Part shown: positions 22,443 through 33,350 of the stretch, piece after piece
Numbering within the stretch: the stretch's first letter is position 1
How the letters are laid out: each line of letters starts with the position of its first letter
Program-made: the position numbers and the translations under genes
Notes under the pieces: generated by a model
Told to the model about the DNA's origin: nothing
Seen by the model: the letters and a program-made list of their open reading frames with translations, nothing else
Databases searched by the model: none
NCBI GenBank assembly: GCA_020852855.1
Contig: JADZAA010000054.1
Location: 1 to 55,458, forward strand
Reading direction: 5' to 3'
DNA length: 55,458 bases
From: Bacteroidota bacterium
GTDB taxonomy: Bacteria > Bacteroidota > Ignavibacteria > Kapaibacteriales > UBA961

Positions 22443-23441
22443 ATGAATTACATCGGCTCAAAGCATAAACTTTCGGAATTTATCAAACAATCGGTTTTTT
22501 CGGTTGCAGGTAACGATTTGTCCGATAAAATTTTTTGCGATTTATTTGCCGGAACAGGAATTGTCAGTCGATATTTTAAAACAGAAGTAAAGCAAATAAT
22601 AAGCAACGATATTGAATATTACGGTTATGTGCTTAACCGGAATTACATTGAAAATCACCACACTTTCGAATATAATCATTTGCTTCAAGAGCTTAACAAG
22701 CTTGAAGGAACAGCAGGCTTTGTATTCGAAGAATATTCGGAAAACGGAAAATCTCAACGTCTGTATTTTTCCGAAAAGAACGGTAAAAAAATAGATGCCG
22801 TAAGGCAAAGAATAGAAGTTTGGAAAAAGGATATATCCATAACAGACGACCAATATTATTTCCTTTTGGCCTCACTGTTAGAGAGTGCCGATAAAGTTGC
22901 AAATACGGCTTCAGTATATGGTGCTTTTCTGAAACATATAAAAGGAACCGCTCAAAAAGAAATGATTGTAGAACCGGCTTTGTTTATCGTAAACGACAAT
23001 GCCCATAAAGTTTTTAATACGGACAGTAACGAATTAATTAAAAATATCGCGGGCGACATATTATACCTTGACCCGCCATATAATGGCCGACAATACGGTG
23101 CTAATTATCACCTGCTGAATACTATTGCCAAATACGACGACTTTGCACCAAAAGGAAAAACGGGGCTTCGACAATACATAAAATCAAACTATTGCAGTCG
23201 TAATTCCGTAAAAATAACATTCGACGATTTAATTAAGAATGCACGATTTAACTTTATCTTTTTGAGTTACAACAATGAAGGTCTGATGAGCGTACCGGAA
23301 ATAAAATCAATTATGTCGAAATATGGTAATTACGACTTGTTTACAACGGATTATCAACGTTTCAAAGCCGACAAAGAAGAAAGCCGGAATCACAAAGCAA
23401 ACTCAACAACCGAGTATTTGCATATATTGGAGAAACGGTAA
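22443..23441 (+). CDS. D12-class DNA adenine-N6 methyltransferase
   Basis: Transfers methyl from S-adenosylmethionine to adenine N6 in a specific DNA site. 332 residues. The N-terminus MNYIGSKHKL is typical of the class. SAM-binding motif I is DLFAGTG (residues 33-39), an SNDIEYYG acidic motif follows, and catalytic motif IV is DPPYNGRQYG (about 210-219). The target recognition region lies between them. The motifs are intact, so it is probably active. No matching restriction enzyme gene is intact beside it; only a severed type IIG N-terminus follows. The gene is visibly richer in A+T than purB or der, suggesting transfer. Confidence 0.9.
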   Translation: MNYIGSKHKLSEFIKQSVFSVAGNDLSDKIFCDLFAGTGIVSRYFKTEVKQIISNDIEYYGYVLNRNYIENHHTFEYNHLLQELNKLEGTAGFVFEEYSENGKSQRLYFSEKNGKKIDAVRQRIEVWKKDISITDDQYYFLLASLLESADKVANTASVYGAFLKHIKGTAQKEMIVEPALFIVNDNAHKVFNTDSNELIKNIAGDILYLDPPYNGRQYGANYHLLNTIAKYDDFAPKGKTGLRQYIKSNYCSRNSVKITFDDLIKNARFNFIFLSYNNEGLMSVPEIKSIMSKYGNYDLFTTDYQRFKADKEESRNHKANSTTEYLHILEKR

Positions 23442-25879: not shown

Positions 25880-27226
25880 TTATTTTCCGATAATAACCAC
25901 TTCGGTTCTTCTGTTAAGTCTGCGTCCGAAGTCGGTGGAATTATCGGCAATGGGGCGAGTATCGCCGAAGCCTTCGGTTTGTATTCTATCAGCAGATATT
26001 CCCTTACGCATCAAATAATTGCGCACAGCATCAGCGCGGCGGCGCGACAGAGCCAGATTCATAATTTTGTTTCCGCGAGAATCGGTGTGACCTTCAACTC
26101 GAATGGTTACTTTGGGCTTATTCGTCAGAAATTCGCGTATAACTTCAAGTTCAAATACCGAATCGGCAATAGTGGAGCTTCCCGTGGCAAACAGAAGGTT
26201 TTCTATAATCAATTTACGCCCTATTTCCACTACGGGAATCATTTTCATCACAAGTTCGCGCTTGTATTTATCAACAATTCCGACGTTCAGAGAATCCGGA
26301 ATTGCGGGCTGGTCGGAGCGATAAGTAACTGCATAAAGATTTGTCAGTTGTGTGGAATAAGCATCGAGAATTTTGGAAAACGGCTGCGTAATATCAAATA
26401 CTGCGCCACGTGTTTCATCGGCTATTTGGCTGTACTCTTTTAACCCGAGAGGAACAATGCAAAAGGCACGAAGTTGTTTTTCTTTAAGATAATCAATCAT
26501 TGCAGCAGTAGTATATTCGGTGCGCCCGTTACCGCGTTCTCCGTATTGATGATAAGGTGCATCCGTTATTACCACTGCCACACGATTGGCAGAAGGTCTG
26601 AACTTCATTTTGCCGGCTTCTGCAAACGCCTCCAAAGTATTTTCCCTTTCGTCGCCGCCACCGCTCGCCCAAAGTCCTGTAACCCATTGCAAAAACTGTT
26701 TTACGTCGCTATTTAGAGGGTATACCTTTTCGATGACGTCAGAATACATAATAAGACCAAGCCTATAATCCACGCCGCGTCCGACAAGCGACTGCGTAAA
26801 ATTCTCGATATTGTTTCGTATACCGTTAATACTGGACTGCATAGTGCCGGTAACGTCGAGCAGAAACACAAAATCTACGGGAACGCGCTCTTTTACGGAT
26901 ATTTTCTCGACGGAAATAACTTTTTTCGGTTTGCCTGCTTCAATCACGGTAAGGTCTTTTACGGCTAAGGTATCGAATGGTTCGCCGTCGGTTGACATCA
27001 CCTCGCATATCAGCCTAACTTCAGGAAATCGAGTAATATCAACGTTTTGAATTGTCATTCTAATGTCTTGTTGCGCGGCTTTTACTTTGGCTTCTTCGGC
27101 TATTTTATCGGATTGACGCAATGAGTCGGGCGTAATTTCCAACGCAAAGGTTGGCATTACGCAAGCGCAAATCAAAGAAACTATGGTCAGCGACAGAAAA
27201 TTTATTATAGTCAATCGGTCGGTCAT
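25880..27226 (-). CDS. Secreted VWA-domain protein with OmpA-type peptidoglycan-binding C-terminus
   Basis: 448 residues. A signal sequence (about 1-29) is followed by a beta-sandwich-like region, then a von Willebrand A domain at about 118-300. Its metal-site motif reads DVTGTM, a DxTGT form of MIDAS, with later ITDAP. The C-terminal 110 residues are an OmpA-like domain: VTIRVEGHTDSRGNKIMNLALSRRRADAV and DRIQTEGFGDTRPIADN, which grips peptidoglycan. It should sit in the periplasm or on the outer membrane, binding a protein partner through the VWA face. A terminator separates it from the two barrel genes upstream on the same strand. Confidence 0.85.
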   Translation of the reverse strand: MTDRLTIINFLSLTIVSLICACVMPTFALEITPDSLRQSDKIAEEAKVKAAQQDIRMTIQNVDITRFPEVRLICEVMSTDGEPFDTLAVKDLTVIEAGKPKKVISVEKISVKERVPVDFVFLLDVTGTMQSSINGIRNNIENFTQSLVGRGVDYRLGLIMYSDVIEKVYPLNSDVKQFLQWVTGLWASGGGDERENTLEAFAEAGKMKFRPSANRVAVVITDAPYHQYGERGNGRTEYTTAAMIDYLKEKQLRAFCIVPLGLKEYSQIADETRGAVFDITQPFSKILDAYSTQLTNLYAVTYRSDQPAIPDSLNVGIVDKYKRELVMKMIPVVEIGRKLIIENLLFATGSSTIADSVFELEVIREFLTNKPKVTIRVEGHTDSRGNKIMNLALSRRRADAVRNYLMRKGISADRIQTEGFGDTRPIADNSTDFGRRLNRRTEVVIIGK

Positions 27227-27264
27227 GAATTTGGTGGCTTTGGGAACACAATATGGCGTATACT

Positions 27265-27312
27265 AATAAAAAAACCCCCATTTTGGGCGATTAGCCCGCC
27301 GATGAGGGTTTA
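27265..27312 (-). terminator. Rho-independent terminator after the 27329-28717 gene
   Basis: On the minus strand AAACCCTCATCGGCGGGC...GCCC...GGGGGTTTTTTT: outer stem AAACCC/GGGTTT and inner stem GGGC/GCCC, then seven T. It lies between the barrel gene and the VWA-OmpA gene. Confidence 0.75.
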
Positions 27313-27328
27313 TCAATCTGCGCAACAC

Positions 27329-28717
27329 TCAGAAATTCAAGCGTAACACCGGCGAAATCATAAAAATATTATTTTCAAACGCACGGCTTTCATCATTTTT
27401 GCGAAGCGGTATCGAGCAACGTGCATCAATGTAAAGCCATTGCCCTAATATCGGAAGATAGCCGCGCCCGAGCAATATTTGATTGGAATATTGCATACTT
27501 ACTCCGAAAGGATAGGTTCCTTGGCTACGGTATTCAACACGGGCAAACACCCAATCCAAGAATTTAGTCGGATGATAAAGTTCCATTCCTTTGGCATCGG
27601 CCGCAAGAAAACCGTCGCCATAGCGCACCTCTTGAATTTCTGCGTAATTCATTCCAACGTCAAAGCGCAAATAATTTTCCGGACGTTGCGGGTCTAACCA
27701 CCAATGATAGAATAAAGCGACGTGCCCGGTTGAGCGAAGAATAGGCGCAACAGATACCGTTGTATCGCGAGTATCACGGTCATTTCTTACTGTTTTATCG
27801 TATCTTGCATAAGTAAGAGGATCTACTTGCGTTCTGCTTTCAAGCGGCGTAGTCGTTTTGTCCAAAGATTTCAGCGGAGATTCGACATTAAAACTGACTC
27901 CGAATTCGGGTTGGAAAGGAGCGTGCATATCAAATCCGAAAATCCCTTTGCCTCCGTATGCCGAATTGAGTGTGCGCTTAGGCAAAAAATCCAGCAAACC
28001 GTTATCTACGTCTGAGAAGCGATAGCCCATACCGATACGAAAATTGATTAAACTCTGTATGGCGCGATTCGTAGATTGGTCATCGTTGGGATAAAGCGGG
28101 CGTTCCAATAGAATTTTTCCTTCGCCGGGTGTAAGGAAAGTATAGCCTACGTCTTCCGTTCCGATAATTGAACGCAACCAAAACTGCGTTTCGCCCATTT
28201 TAAGTGTTTGCTCGAACGCCGAAATGGAGAACGAATGAATGACGTTTACCGGTTTATCGAGATAATTGGTAATAGCGTCAATCTGCGATTCGGTAGGCGG
28301 CTGGTCCGGCGGTATGTCCCTGTAACTATACGGACGCTTCGGGTCGGAAAGTGTTCCGGCCAAAGCCCGCATCTTGGTTTGAACTTCCGATGCAACCATT
28401 TTTTCAATGCCGCACTCTATCAAAAGAATTATAAATTCAGGGTCATTTTTATCTTTTATCGGTGCAGATGTAACCGTGATATTCTGTAAATCAAGATTAG
28501 TGCGCTTGCGTCCGTCAAGGATAAAAGTCTGCAAAATCTGTAATTGCAGATTCGGCTCAGTAACTTTCCAACGCGGAAAATACGGCAACAGCAATGGATC
28601 TATAGTTTTCAGTTGGGCAAGAGCAGTCGAGTCGTCGTCTGCCGCACGAAGCTGTTGCGGCGCAAAACCCGCAACGATTATTGCGGCCAGTAGGAAAAAG
28701 CGTGTCAGAAGCATCAT
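27329..28717 (-). CDS. Predicted outer-membrane beta-barrel protein
   Basis: 462 residues. A cleavable signal (about 1-25, ending QLRAA) leads to an N-terminal region of about 180 residues that looks globular, then a C-terminal half with alternating aromatic/polar strands, ending SPVLRLNF. The terminal Phe is the outer-membrane insertion signature. No family recognised. It follows 52 bases after the next barrel gene (28770-30458) and ends at a clear terminator, so it is the last member of a unit beginning with the large periplasmic protein at 32805. Confidence 0.7.
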   Translation of the reverse strand: MMLLTRFFLLAAIIVAGFAPQQLRAADDDSTALAQLKTIDPLLLPYFPRWKVTEPNLQLQILQTFILDGRKRTNLDLQNITVTSAPIKDKNDPEFIILLIECGIEKMVASEVQTKMRALAGTLSDPKRPYSYRDIPPDQPPTESQIDAITNYLDKPVNVIHSFSISAFEQTLKMGETQFWLRSIIGTEDVGYTFLTPGEGKILLERPLYPNDDQSTNRAIQSLINFRIGMGYRFSDVDNGLLDFLPKRTLNSAYGGKGIFGFDMHAPFQPEFGVSFNVESPLKSLDKTTTPLESRTQVDPLTYARYDKTVRNDRDTRDTTVSVAPILRSTGHVALFYHWWLDPQRPENYLRFDVGMNYAEIQEVRYGDGFLAADAKGMELYHPTKFLDWVFARVEYRSQGTYPFGVSMQYSNQILLGRGYLPILGQWLYIDARCSIPLRKNDESRAFENNIFMISPVLRLNF

Positions 28718-28769
28718 ACTTAATTACGTCAAATTAATTCGTAAATACTGCATTTGCCGCTGCAACGGC

Positions 28770-30458
28770 TCAGAAATTCACCACAAATTGAAGAGATGGA
28801 ATAAACAGGGTTTCTCGTTCCCAATCTTTCGGGTCGCGTGTAACAGTACGGAACAAGCGCGCATCGCCGCGAACTGCAAATTCTTTACTGATAGGAACTT
28901 GCAACCATATTTCGCCGAGTATAGAACCATCGAAAAATTGTGCGCTCGCTCCCCAAGGTACTGTTTTGCTTAAAGTCATATATTCGATTTTACCGGAAAT
29001 TCCGCCTACGTTTTCCACCGAATGTCCATTAGCCAAATCAAAATACGGACTCAACACCTCTATGGAATCCTTGCCGCGTATATCTTTGAGTGTAGTATCT
29101 TTCCAGCGTTCCATCGAATAATATGTTCCACCGAATTTAAAGCGGAAGAAATGCGTTTCGTCTATATTGACGGCAAAAGAATAATGCCCTTGCATGTGTA
29201 TACGCGGCAAATAGCTTTGTCCATCTTTATTTGCGTCGCGTCCTGGAGTGGGATTTCTTTTAGGGTCGCCGAAAACATAAGATGCGGAAAAATTGAATAC
29301 TCCGCTTTGGTTGATGATTTTCATCGGAAAATCGAAAGCGCCATTAACGCCGAATCCGGCACTGGTTAAGCGGCGGTCGGTATTGAACACGTCTTTGGCA
29401 AGATTGGACCAACCGGAAGTAGGCAGTATTATTCCAAGTTTATACGACTCCCAAAGTACATTCGCACTCATCCGTTCGCTCCACAGCGAAGGATAGTTTA
29501 TTTCGTCCAATCCGTATTTCAGCTCAACGCCGTATTTGGGCAGGAAGTTATTGTAGACCACCACCGTATCGTTTCCGCTGACTATCGGCACACCGTTTTC
29601 GTCTAATTTTGCTTCGTAGTGACGGAATCTCAGCAAGTCGAGGAATCCCAATGTAAGTTCATTTTCATAATAATCTTGTTGCGGTTGTCCTTCGCTTATG
29701 CGGATGTATTTTTGCACATCATCGTCGGCAATTAGTTTTGTAACTCCGATTTTTTTCGGCATCCAATCGTCCTCGCCAATACCTTGAACAGGAGCAGTAA
29801 CATCGGAGCAATTTTGCTGAATTACCAAAGTTTTCAAATAGTCCGATAAATTTGCCGAAGGCGAGGATTTGGGTGCGCCGATACGCTCAAGTTCCGATGC
29901 TAAACGAACTTCTACCGACTTACCGAGATTTGCGGAAGCACGTGCCTGATTACTCTGCGAAGTAACCAATCCTATAACTTTCAGCGAAGTATCGCCTTGG
30001 ATATATCGCGAAGTAACCATATATGCAGACTTAAACGTTAGGCAATTGCTTTTGGCAAGTTTTATGTAGTAGTTAATAGCAGCACTGACTTCGGCAGTAA
30101 TACGTCCCTTGCCTTTTAATGCACTCTCAACTTCTTTCGGGTCTGGGTCGCAACCTTGTTCGTCAACGCTTTCCTGTATGGCGGAAATAAGTGAACGATT
30201 ATTTTTCTCAAAATCAACTAATCCGGCAGGTTTTACGGGCGGTACAACCAAGACTTCCGTAACCGCGGCAAGTTCCTCGCCGTTAATTTGCCAACAAGAG
30301 ATATTGCTGTATCGCCAACTCTTAAAATTAGAAAGTATGCTTCGTATCTGTGCTGCGTTTCGTTGCGCGTAGATTTCCTCGCTCCACACGTTCGTGCCAA
30401 TTACCGCAATAACAAGTAAAATTATCCGCAGCGACAGTATCGCTCTTGTCTTATTCAT
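28770..30458 (-). CDS. Predicted outer-membrane barrel protein with large soluble N-terminus
   Basis: 562 residues from ATG 30458 (MNKTRAILSLRIILLV), which gives a proper signal peptide cleaved near EEIYAQ; the longer frame to 30551 adds residues unlike a signal. Residues about 30-250 are soluble, with four scattered cysteines. A C-terminal barrel-like part ends SLQFVVNF with the terminal Phe. No homology recognised. Its gene lies between the GldM-like protein and the second barrel gene, all in one direction with 97- and 52-base gaps. A role as outer-membrane partner of the GldM-like protein is inference from gene order. Confidence 0.7.
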   Translation of the reverse strand: MNKTRAILSLRIILLVIAVIGTNVWSEEIYAQRNAAQIRSILSNFKSWRYSNISCWQINGEELAAVTEVLVVPPVKPAGLVDFEKNNRSLISAIQESVDEQGCDPDPKEVESALKGKGRITAEVSAAINYYIKLAKSNCLTFKSAYMVTSRYIQGDTSLKVIGLVTSQSNQARASANLGKSVEVRLASELERIGAPKSSPSANLSDYLKTLVIQQNCSDVTAPVQGIGEDDWMPKKIGVTKLIADDDVQKYIRISEGQPQQDYYENELTLGFLDLLRFRHYEAKLDENGVPIVSGNDTVVVYNNFLPKYGVELKYGLDEINYPSLWSERMSANVLWESYKLGIILPTSGWSNLAKDVFNTDRRLTSAGFGVNGAFDFPMKIINQSGVFNFSASYVFGDPKRNPTPGRDANKDGQSYLPRIHMQGHYSFAVNIDETHFFRFKFGGTYYSMERWKDTTLKDIRGKDSIEVLSPYFDLANGHSVENVGGISGKIEYMTLSKTVPWGASAQFFDGSILGEIWLQVPISKEFAVRGDARLFRTVTRDPKDWERETLFIPSLQFVVNF

Positions 30459-30555
30459 AATAGCGTCTTGCAAGAAATGATTTAAGAAAAAACTGATAAA
30501 GTAGGCGACACCGACATAAAACGATGCGTAAGTGTCGCCCGAACGCTGCAATTGC

Positions 30556-32805
30556 TTATTGCGAAGGTACCGATATACTGATATCGCGGCTGCTTTCGGC
30601 TACTTCCCCGTTTTCCGGATTGGTCACTTTAAGTGTTAAAGTTACAACGACAGTACCGCCGTCGAATCTGCCCGGTCGTATAGCTGGTCCTTGAATCGGA
30701 ACCGTGATTGCATATCCGTCCCCATCTACCGAAACATCAGCCATGCCGGCTGAATATCCGGTAGGAAGCGATGTTTGCTTACTGTTGATTTTTGGATTAG
30801 CCTTAATATCTTTCAATGTAGCAGTTGCTTCACAACTAAGTTGCGGTTTGCTGACTTTTATACCAATAGCCCTTACAATCGGGTTTTTACGGTCAAACCC
30901 CGGGTCGGTTGTTCCTACATTGGTAATTTTTGCTTTCTTTTGAGTTGCTTTTCCGTCTACTTCCAGCAACACCACTTTTTCACCTGTACGCGGAAATTCC
31001 CAAGCTACGCGGAACGATAGATTTTGAGCGGTTGCCGGAATACATTTAGCACTTCCGTCCGGTATCGTAAATCCTCGTGTATCGGGCAGTTGATCGCCTG
31101 TGCCGAGAACACCGCTAAGTATAAATTCACCCGGCTTTATGCTATTACCCGATGCCGGTTCTATAGGCATAGGAATAAACTTGTCGCCGTATTGGAATCC
31201 CGTAAGATTGCTCTTTATGTCTTCCTCATTGGCAATTCTGCTTTCATATACTTTCATTCTACATTCTTTGCTGTCGCTTTGCCCGCGCTCGTTAGAATGA
31301 GAAACGGTAATAGTGTAATCGCCTGCCTGCGCAGGTTGCTCGAGCACTAATTGATATTTGCGCGTTTTGCCGGCATCGCCTGCACTTGCGGCTCCAGATG
31401 CAGTACTACTACCTGACACACCAAGATCAACAACTTTCCAAGGCAAAGGCGGAACACTCGTTACAGTAGGCGGTTTTGTCGGTTGATACGGCCCTGCTTC
31501 GAAACGAATTATTGTCTTTTGCAATTTATCGAATGAGCGTGTATCCTCATCGTATATCACCACGATTGCAGGCGGCTGTTTTTGAGGCGGCAACTTGACC
31601 ACGTGCAAACTAAACACCATACTGCCTTTGTTCTGGTCAAAATTCTCCGATTGATTGGGTGCGAGAAGCTGTGCTATATACCCGTAAAGTTCTATTTTAC
31701 CTGATTTTTCACGAATTTTCTCATCAGAACTTTTCTGCGCTGCTTGTAATGCAGTCTCTAGTTTTTCTTTAAAATCCGCAAGCGTCACCTTGCCGTCGGC
31801 CAAGTCATCGGCACTCGGTACATTCATTGTCTCTAAATCTCGAACCAATTCTTTCTTAACTAATCGAAGATCTTTAACCTTTAATTGCACAGTACCTATA
31901 TTTACTTTTTCATCATCAGATATTTCACGCGTATTCATTCCTTCAGGAGAACGAATTCCGAGTATTCGGCTTGTTTGCGATGTAAAGCGCAGTTTGAACC
32001 ACCCGGGTTTTTGCGGCGGTTTGTACATTACGGAAAATGTACGCTTTTTGTATTTATTGCCGTTCAGCATTGCAAGCGTATCGGTTTTGCCCTGTGAATA
32101 GCGGAAAACACTGTCTGTCGGAATGCCCGGAGGTGCGTATTCTTGTAAGTTACCCACCATAAAATCAGGCGAATATTTCCCGTACACCGGTTGCTTGTAA
32201 AGGTCTTCTTCGTGTACGCCCGGCTTTTGTTTTGTGGCCTTTTCGTCAAGTTGGATTTGGCGCACCATTTCCAAACGCCAACCGTCTCCTATGTCTCTGG
32301 CTTCCTTAAACGGCTGTTTTTTTTCCATAAGCCGCAAAGTATCCTCCGAAGGGAAAAGAGGCATTACCACGTCGGAGCTCGGATTGTAAAATATCTGATA
32401 TTGCAAATCTTTTACATTGGCAAGGTCGACCAATTCCTTAAATCTTGCGGTTTTGTCTTTTGGTTCTAACCTTCCGTCAGCCTTAACTTTTTCGATTTCT
32501 CCGCTAACGTCAACAACGCCGACATCAACCAAGTATTCGCGGTCGTCGTCTATTAATCGTGCGACTTCAGGGTCAAGATCGCTGGTTTTTAGCGTAATTT
32601 CGTCTTGCGGGCGCGTACCTATGCCTTCACTGCCGGCACCGGCCTGCAATTGCGACAGAATACTCTCCACTATTTTCATGGATTCTTTCTGCCTTTTAAC
32701 AAGATGCTCTTCCGCTTCATCCCGCTCTACTATAATAATCAGCAGTTCGAGAATAACTGCAAGATACAGCACGAAATAGACCTTTCCGGCCCCTCCCTTA
32801 GACAT
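30556..32805 (-). CDS. Single-pass periplasmic protein, GldM/PorM-like in layout
   Basis: 749 residues. A short cytoplasmic tail of 8 residues is followed by one membrane helix (about 9-26, VYFVLYLAVILELLIIIV) with Glu20 in its middle. A charged helix comes next (EEHLVKRQKES), then roughly 680 periplasmic residues with several Ig-like beta-sandwich stretches, such as GWFKLRFTSQTSRILG, DYTITVSHSNERGQSD and GGTVVVTLTLKVTNPENG. GldM/PorM, the type IX secretion motor shaft, has the same plan: an N-terminal helix with a buried Glu and tandem periplasmic domains. The sequence itself is not clearly GldM and is longer (GldM is about 500-520). No GldL is adjacent. A GGGGGAT ribosome-binding site supports the ATG at 32805. 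Confidence 0.6.
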   Translation of the reverse strand: MSKGGAGKVYFVLYLAVILELLIIIVERDEAEEHLVKRQKESMKIVESILSQLQAGAGSEGIGTRPQDEITLKTSDLDPEVARLIDDDREYLVDVGVVDVSGEIEKVKADGRLEPKDKTARFKELVDLANVKDLQYQIFYNPSSDVVMPLFPSEDTLRLMEKKQPFKEARDIGDGWRLEMVRQIQLDEKATKQKPGVHEEDLYKQPVYGKYSPDFMVGNLQEYAPPGIPTDSVFRYSQGKTDTLAMLNGNKYKKRTFSVMYKPPQKPGWFKLRFTSQTSRILGIRSPEGMNTREISDDEKVNIGTVQLKVKDLRLVKKELVRDLETMNVPSADDLADGKVTLADFKEKLETALQAAQKSSDEKIREKSGKIELYGYIAQLLAPNQSENFDQNKGSMVFSLHVVKLPPQKQPPAIVVIYDEDTRSFDKLQKTIIRFEAGPYQPTKPPTVTSVPPLPWKVVDLGVSGSSTASGAASAGDAGKTRKYQLVLEQPAQAGDYTITVSHSNERGQSDSKECRMKVYESRIANEEDIKSNLTGFQYGDKFIPMPIEPASGNSIKPGEFILSGVLGTGDQLPDTRGFTIPDGSAKCIPATAQNLSFRVAWEFPRTGEKVVLLEVDGKATQKKAKITNVGTTDPGFDRKNPIVRAIGIKVSKPQLSCEATATLKDIKANPKINSKQTSLPTGYSAGMADVSVDGDGYAITVPIQGPAIRPGRFDGGTVVVTLTLKVTNPENGEVAESSRDISISVPSQ

Positions 32806-33101: not shown

Positions 33102-33350
33102 TTATTTCGGGCTGGATTGATTTCCGGCCGGAGCATCTGTTTTTACAACCGGAGCTGGCGTAGCCGTAGTTGAAGCCGAGCTGGTCTTGGCTGCATCGGT
33201 ACATTCTTTTTTCATTGTCATCGAGGCCTTCTTTGCTTTTTTGCTGCAACAAGATGCTGCTTTTTCATCGCAATTGGCCTGTGCTGCAATAGGTGCAATC
33301 AACATTGCACCAACGGTAAGAGCGGCGAGCATAATTTTGGTTGTTTTCAT
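33102..33350 (-). CDS. Small secreted Cys/Lys-rich protein
   Basis: 82 residues. A textbook signal peptide (residues 1-25, cut after IAAQA) leaves a 57-residue mature part beginning NCDEKAASCCSKKAKKASM. It has four cysteines (Cys27, Cys34, Cys35, Cys50) and many lysines, then a Thr/Ala/Pro-rich tail. A strong AGGAGGA ribosome-binding site (33356-33362) precedes the ATG, suggesting high expression. The cysteines could bind a metal or form disulfides; function unknown. The copper ATPase lies 2 kb away, but nothing ties them directly. Confidence 0.7.
   Translation of the reverse strand: MKTTKIMLAALTVGAMLIAPIAAQANCDEKAASCCSKKAKKASMTMKKECTDAAKTSSASTTATPAPVVKTDAPAGNQSSPK

Follow-up and report, generated by a model that had tools for sequence, protein, structure and literature searches.

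Four genes in the window (the whole 55,458-nucleotide stretch of DNA analysed here), together with a two-helix membrane protein encoded outside it, may form a GldLM-like trans-envelope motor that is driven by the proton-motive force (PMF), is specific to the Kapabacteria/Ignavibacteria-type class and most plausibly has the type 9 secretion system (T9SS) as its load, a combined reading to which we give somewhat less than an even chance. Its parts are L and M, the candidate inner-membrane pair, two outer-membrane barrels, and V, a peptidoglycan-binding protein. A motor-like function of the L-M module is likely; its role in T9SS stands at near even odds, because 115 of 197 T9SS genomes carry neither L nor M in detectable form and another load is possible.

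The four long open reading frames lie on the minus strand of the window, all in the same direction and in the order M, barrel A, barrel B, V, and their positions bear out the co-directional cluster described in an earlier reading of the letters alone (hereafter the sequence-only reading). M (30556-32805, minus strand), the shaft candidate of 749 aa, has a transmembrane (TM) helix at residues ~9-27 that includes Glu20. Barrel A (28770-30458, minus strand) consists of a signal peptide, an N-terminal periplasmic domain and an outer-membrane barrel with a terminal Phe; its ORF as listed runs from 30551 to 28770 and encodes 593 aa, and the better start is the ATG at 30458, which precedes the signal peptide. 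Barrel B (27329-28717, minus strand; 462 aa), a paralogue of barrel A, has a signal peptide, an N-terminal alpha/beta domain, a predicted beta-barrel and again a terminal Phe. V (25880-27226, minus strand; 448 aa) is an exported protein in which the domain scan finds a VWA domain (E=8e-11) and an OmpA-type peptidoglycan-binding domain (E=2e-22), in agreement with the VWA protein and peptidoglycan-binding tail that had been read from the sequence. Scans of M, barrel A and barrel B against Pfam and NCBIfam assigned none of the three to a family. Two further observations concern the surroundings of the cluster: just upstream of M, a small ORF (33102-33350, minus strand) is predicted to encode a secreted product that contains several cysteine and lysine residues, and a putative adenine-specific DNA methyltransferase-like ORF (22443-23441, plus strand), recognised by eye from its DPPY motif, is flanked by a purB-like gene and a short hydrolase-like ORF.

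Families of the class that are far apart share the order M-barrel-barrel, in some cases with V next in line, and this recurrence in distant relatives means that the order is not a product of chance. V occupies the same position in loci L001, L043-L045 and L053, the last of which (genome G032) carries L, M, both barrels and V as one uninterrupted run. The host genome is a Kapabacteria-like member of the Bacteroidota, and its nearest two public relatives are a Kapaibacterium genome and UBA2373.

Homologues of M were found in 75 of the 197 genomes of the class with the window protein as query. The protein has a single hydrophobic segment, so that the Glu described as buried in its only membrane helix does lie there, and this segment, KVYFxLYLAxxxELLIIxxERD, is conserved far above the rest of the protein. 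Lys8, Tyr10, Tyr14, Glu20, Glu27, Arg28 and Asp29 are kept in 34/34 orthologues; in a wider set (n=17), Phe11 and Tyr14 never vary, Arg28 and Asp29 hardly do, and 12 sequences have Glu20. The conservation of Glu20 on which the sequence-only reading depended is thereby upheld for the orthologues. Sequence and predicted model together give a single TM helix at the N-terminus and, after it, an extended periplasmic rod of several domains. In the model (mean pLDDT 85), the TM helix continues as a coiled-coil helix to residue ~54 and is followed by an alpha/beta domain (68-310), a helical segment (310-381) and, at the end, tandem Ig-like beta-sandwiches, as had been expected of the periplasmic part. 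Among PDB structures the model matches tandem-Ig and cadherin chains best, a result that identifies it as an Ig-like rod and nothing more specific.

The shaft is organised differently in Ignavibacteria-type genomes, where L is followed by a short M (~205 aa), then by a periplasmic protein encoded on its own (C8) and finally by the paired barrels. Because C8 aligns with the Ig-like portion of the long M (hhalign, 93.6%), we regard M as split in these genomes. In six such loci (L056-L058, L061, L112 and L113), the shaft comprises a TM protein of ~205 aa and an Ig-domain protein of ~360 aa, and the barrel pair is tandemly duplicated in the order B6-B5-B6-B5.

Both barrels carry a signal peptide and a C-terminal Phe. 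They are related to each other (barrel A versus barrel B, hhalign 99.7%) and have homologues among the barrels of the other lineages. The model of barrel B, of moderate confidence (mean pLDDT 66), shows a beta-barrel with an N-terminal alpha/beta domain, and its best PDB matches are membrane barrels with weak E-values and without a specific relative; barrel A, known by its sequence, is assigned through the barrel family that is kept beside M in relatives. These features, with the absence of a Pfam or NCBIfam family, uphold the description of the pair as two unrecognised outer-membrane barrels. A disulfide-linked barrel arrangement such as that in PMC12635249 was considered and is unsupported, as the barrel alignments contain no conserved cysteine. 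PDB sequence searches with the profiles of L, M and the barrels returned nothing meaningful.

A search elsewhere for a two-helix, GldL-type partner had been proposed, and the neighbour genes of relatives reveal one: in several families a membrane protein, L, is encoded directly upstream of M. Its core is a two-helix hairpin in which a Glu of the second core helix is invariant in 27/27 and 25/25 sequences; many L proteins have N-terminal extensions with extra TM segments, and Pfam and NCBIfam scans place L in no family. The host genome contains three L genes, all on contigs other than that of the 749-aa M, as well as a second, shorter M. One of the L genes, on contig C11, encodes a 442-aa L, and the gene that comes immediately after it specifies a Peptidase_C25 protein of 1924 aa, for which PorU-type models score best in NCBIfam without reaching their cut-offs; such a PorU-like C25 protein follows L in 8 of the 10 Kapabacteria-order genomes examined. 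We infer that, in the host genome, the 749-aa M is most likely paired with this 442-aa L, because the same subfamily adjoins M in the f5 genomes. The other two copies differ in their setting. On contig C115 (L098:511-2881), a 278-aa L immediately precedes an M paralogue of 518 aa in which both Glu20 and the ERD residues are missing; on contig C29 (L097:8492-9490), the third L (332 aa) has no M neighbour and is followed by a gene for an AAA-ATPase/TPR protein.

L and M occur together. Among the 197 class genomes, 74 have both, 1 has M only, 7 have L only and 115 have neither; the M-only genome is 67% complete, and of the seven with L only, no fewer than two (G009 and G157) carry beside L an M that the window-protein query missed. 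Fisher's test for this co-occurrence gives ~1e-44, a value that ignores shared ancestry and is descriptive only. Within a phylum sample of 296 genomes no L was found outside the class, targeted searches of 25 L-minus genomes yielded no convincing M TM segment or barrel, and in the 30 genomes tested for it the barrel occurs only in L-positive ones.

Type 9 secretion pervades the same class. SprA was detected in 196/197 genomes (E=1.7e-263 in the host genome), and proteins with sorting tails in 197/197, with at least 28 in each. The ordinary motor, which the sequence-only reading had allowed might be encoded elsewhere in the genome, was not detected as far as GldL and GldM are concerned: canonical GldM (GldM_1st) and canonical GldL (TIGR03513) both score above cut-off in 0/197 genomes, and GldM_1st as a positive control matches in 36 of 148 phylum genomes. 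A weak GldM_1st match in G105 was discarded as a flagellar hook-associated protein, and the TIGR03513 hits were judged to be noise, as they are below cut-off, fall in the C-terminal non-TM part of the model and are accompanied by signal in the Bacillus and Thermotoga controls of the same search. Since the T9SS translocon and the cargo tails are present and canonical GldL and GldM are not, T9SS is the most plausible load of the module, a view also favoured by the PorU-like C25 protein after L and by the PorE-like proteins that occupy the V position in G157. The 115 genomes without detectable L or M nevertheless have T9SS cargo tails, nearly all with SprA, and are likewise without canonical GldL or GldM, so the module is not obligatory for T9SS in the class and we rejected the claim that it is "the" T9SS motor of these bacteria. 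Either the motors of these genomes are too diverged to be seen, or their T9SS has another power source, or the module serves another load.

In the mechanism we envisage, L would encircle a dimer of M TM helices as a ring within the inner membrane, and proton flow through the invariant Glu of the second core helix of L would cause M to rotate or to cycle. The Ig-domain shaft of M would span the periplasm and pass this motion on to the N-terminal domains of the barrel pair in the outer membrane, V would anchor the assembly to peptidoglycan in the role that PorE has in T9SS, and the work done would be type 9 secretion. We infer the ring stoichiometry, the proton drive, the shaft-barrel contact and T9SS as the load alike. 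A motor is favoured by the position of L directly upstream of M in several families and by the complete run in G032, as well as by the co-occurrence of L and M, the invariant Glu of L and the conservation of M, which is highest in its TM segment. The scheme is weakened by the decoy-level similarity of L and M to GldL and GldM and by the separation of L and M onto different contigs in the host genome.

How far the evidence requires a motor, and for what purpose, can be judged against two other readings. M might do no more than tether the two membranes passively, the barrels might act as porins or in assembly, and the co-occurrence of L might be a coincidence; tandem Ig-like rods are indeed common, and the comparisons of L and M with GldL and GldM stay at the level of decoys, but the conserved charged and aromatic residues of the M TM helix are unlike those of a plain anchor, the Glu of L is invariant, and the two genes are linked and co-occurring. 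We hold this reading improbable. A PMF-driven L-M motor with a separate load deserves more weight, though we still consider it unlikely: it would drive surface movement, keep the outer membrane stable or power a dedicated transport through a pair of barrels of its own, and the T9SS of the class would run on another, not yet recognised motor. This would fit the universality of T9SS cargo beside the presence of L, M and barrels in only ~41% of genomes, as well as the restriction of the barrel to L-positive genomes, and the three L and two M of the host genome would allow several motors with different loads. Against it, T9SS is indicated both by the C25/PorU-like protein next to L and by the PorE-like members of the G157 operon, and no canonical motor remains to power T9SS in these genomes.

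The origin of the module is a related question. The sequence-only reading took a buried Glu to be a hallmark of GldM/PorM, which does not hold, as the essential conserved Glu of GldLM is E49 of GldL and E31 of GldM is dispensable (PMC8986121). GldM itself changes conformation in a PMF-dependent manner, an effect followed through its protease sensitivity (PMC8986121). The GldM-like domains that the sequence-only reading expected are not supported either: M of the host genome matches neither GldM_1st nor GldM_4th, and the M model has no counterpart of the all-helical D1 that in GldM directly follows the TM helix and precedes three beta domains, D2-D4 (PMC5790014). L and M could still be a true, very divergent descendant of GldLM, homologous rather than analogous, whose sequence similarity has been lost. 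A two-TM L beside a one-TM M, as in gldL-gldM, the shared phylum, and an alignment of the L core with the GldL core that has helices and Glu in register (hhalign, P=0.0055) speak for such descent; in a test with 101 decoys, however, 1/10 GldL sequences beats all decoys and the other 9/10 score within the range of unrelated TM hairpins, and the TM segment of M matches GldM no better than TM decoys do. We consider descent possible but doubtful: on paper L and M would work as GldL and GldM do, and they are at most putative members of that family. The converse, that these are independently evolved PMF-driven motors with paired barrels, unrelated by descent to GldLM, MotAB or ExbBD and serving T9SS or surface movement, appears rather unlikely as well. 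The confidences of the preferred reading and of its rivals overlap, and descent from GldLM is compatible with either load. Of the two possibilities that the sequence-only reading had raised, an energised trans-envelope system is supported by the GldL-type partner, the conserved Glu20 and the lack of canonical GldL and GldM throughout the class; a T9SS core is a hypothesis drawn from genome context.

The type 9 export channel and its cargo are thus found throughout a class that lacks the motor by which the species studied drive this system. The L-M module, read as a PMF-driven trans-envelope motor that may, with less than even probability, be of an independent kind, is a concrete and testable candidate for the missing motor in ~40% of the genomes of the class. 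In some lineages this candidate would work with a much shorter M (~205 aa) and a separately encoded Ig part. The power source of T9SS in the remaining ~60% of genomes becomes a testable question. A literature search that left aside bioRxiv preprints and most subscription journals returned no description of such a motor in the class.

Compared with GldL-GldM and PorL-PorM, the module differs in that neither L nor M has a significant sequence match, the M model lacks the helical D1, M is succeeded by a pair of barrels and is encoded in two pieces in some lineages, and many L proteins are extended at the N-terminus by extra TM segments. It resembles these systems in the pairing of a two-TM L, with its invariant Glu in the second helix, and a one-TM M, in the adjacency of the genes, in the long multidomain periplasmic shaft of M and in its occurrence in T9SS-bearing Bacteroidota. 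L and M have no MotA_ExbB or ExbD Pfam match, in contrast to the 5:2 ion-driven motors MotAB, ExbBD and TolQR, with which they have in common a pair of inner-membrane proteins, an acidic residue conserved within the membrane and an effector in the periplasm. The extended form of L, with four TM segments and a cytoplasmic region between them, is loosely MotA-like. The T9SS peptidoglycan anchor PorE has propeller-type, CRD and OmpA domains (PMC7192894), and V of the window carries a VWA domain where PorE has TPR, propeller and CRD. The protein at the V position in L114 has all three of the propeller-type, CRD and OmpA domains, with a PorE model match below cut-off, and V of the window shares with PorE the OmpA-type peptidoglycan-binding tail.
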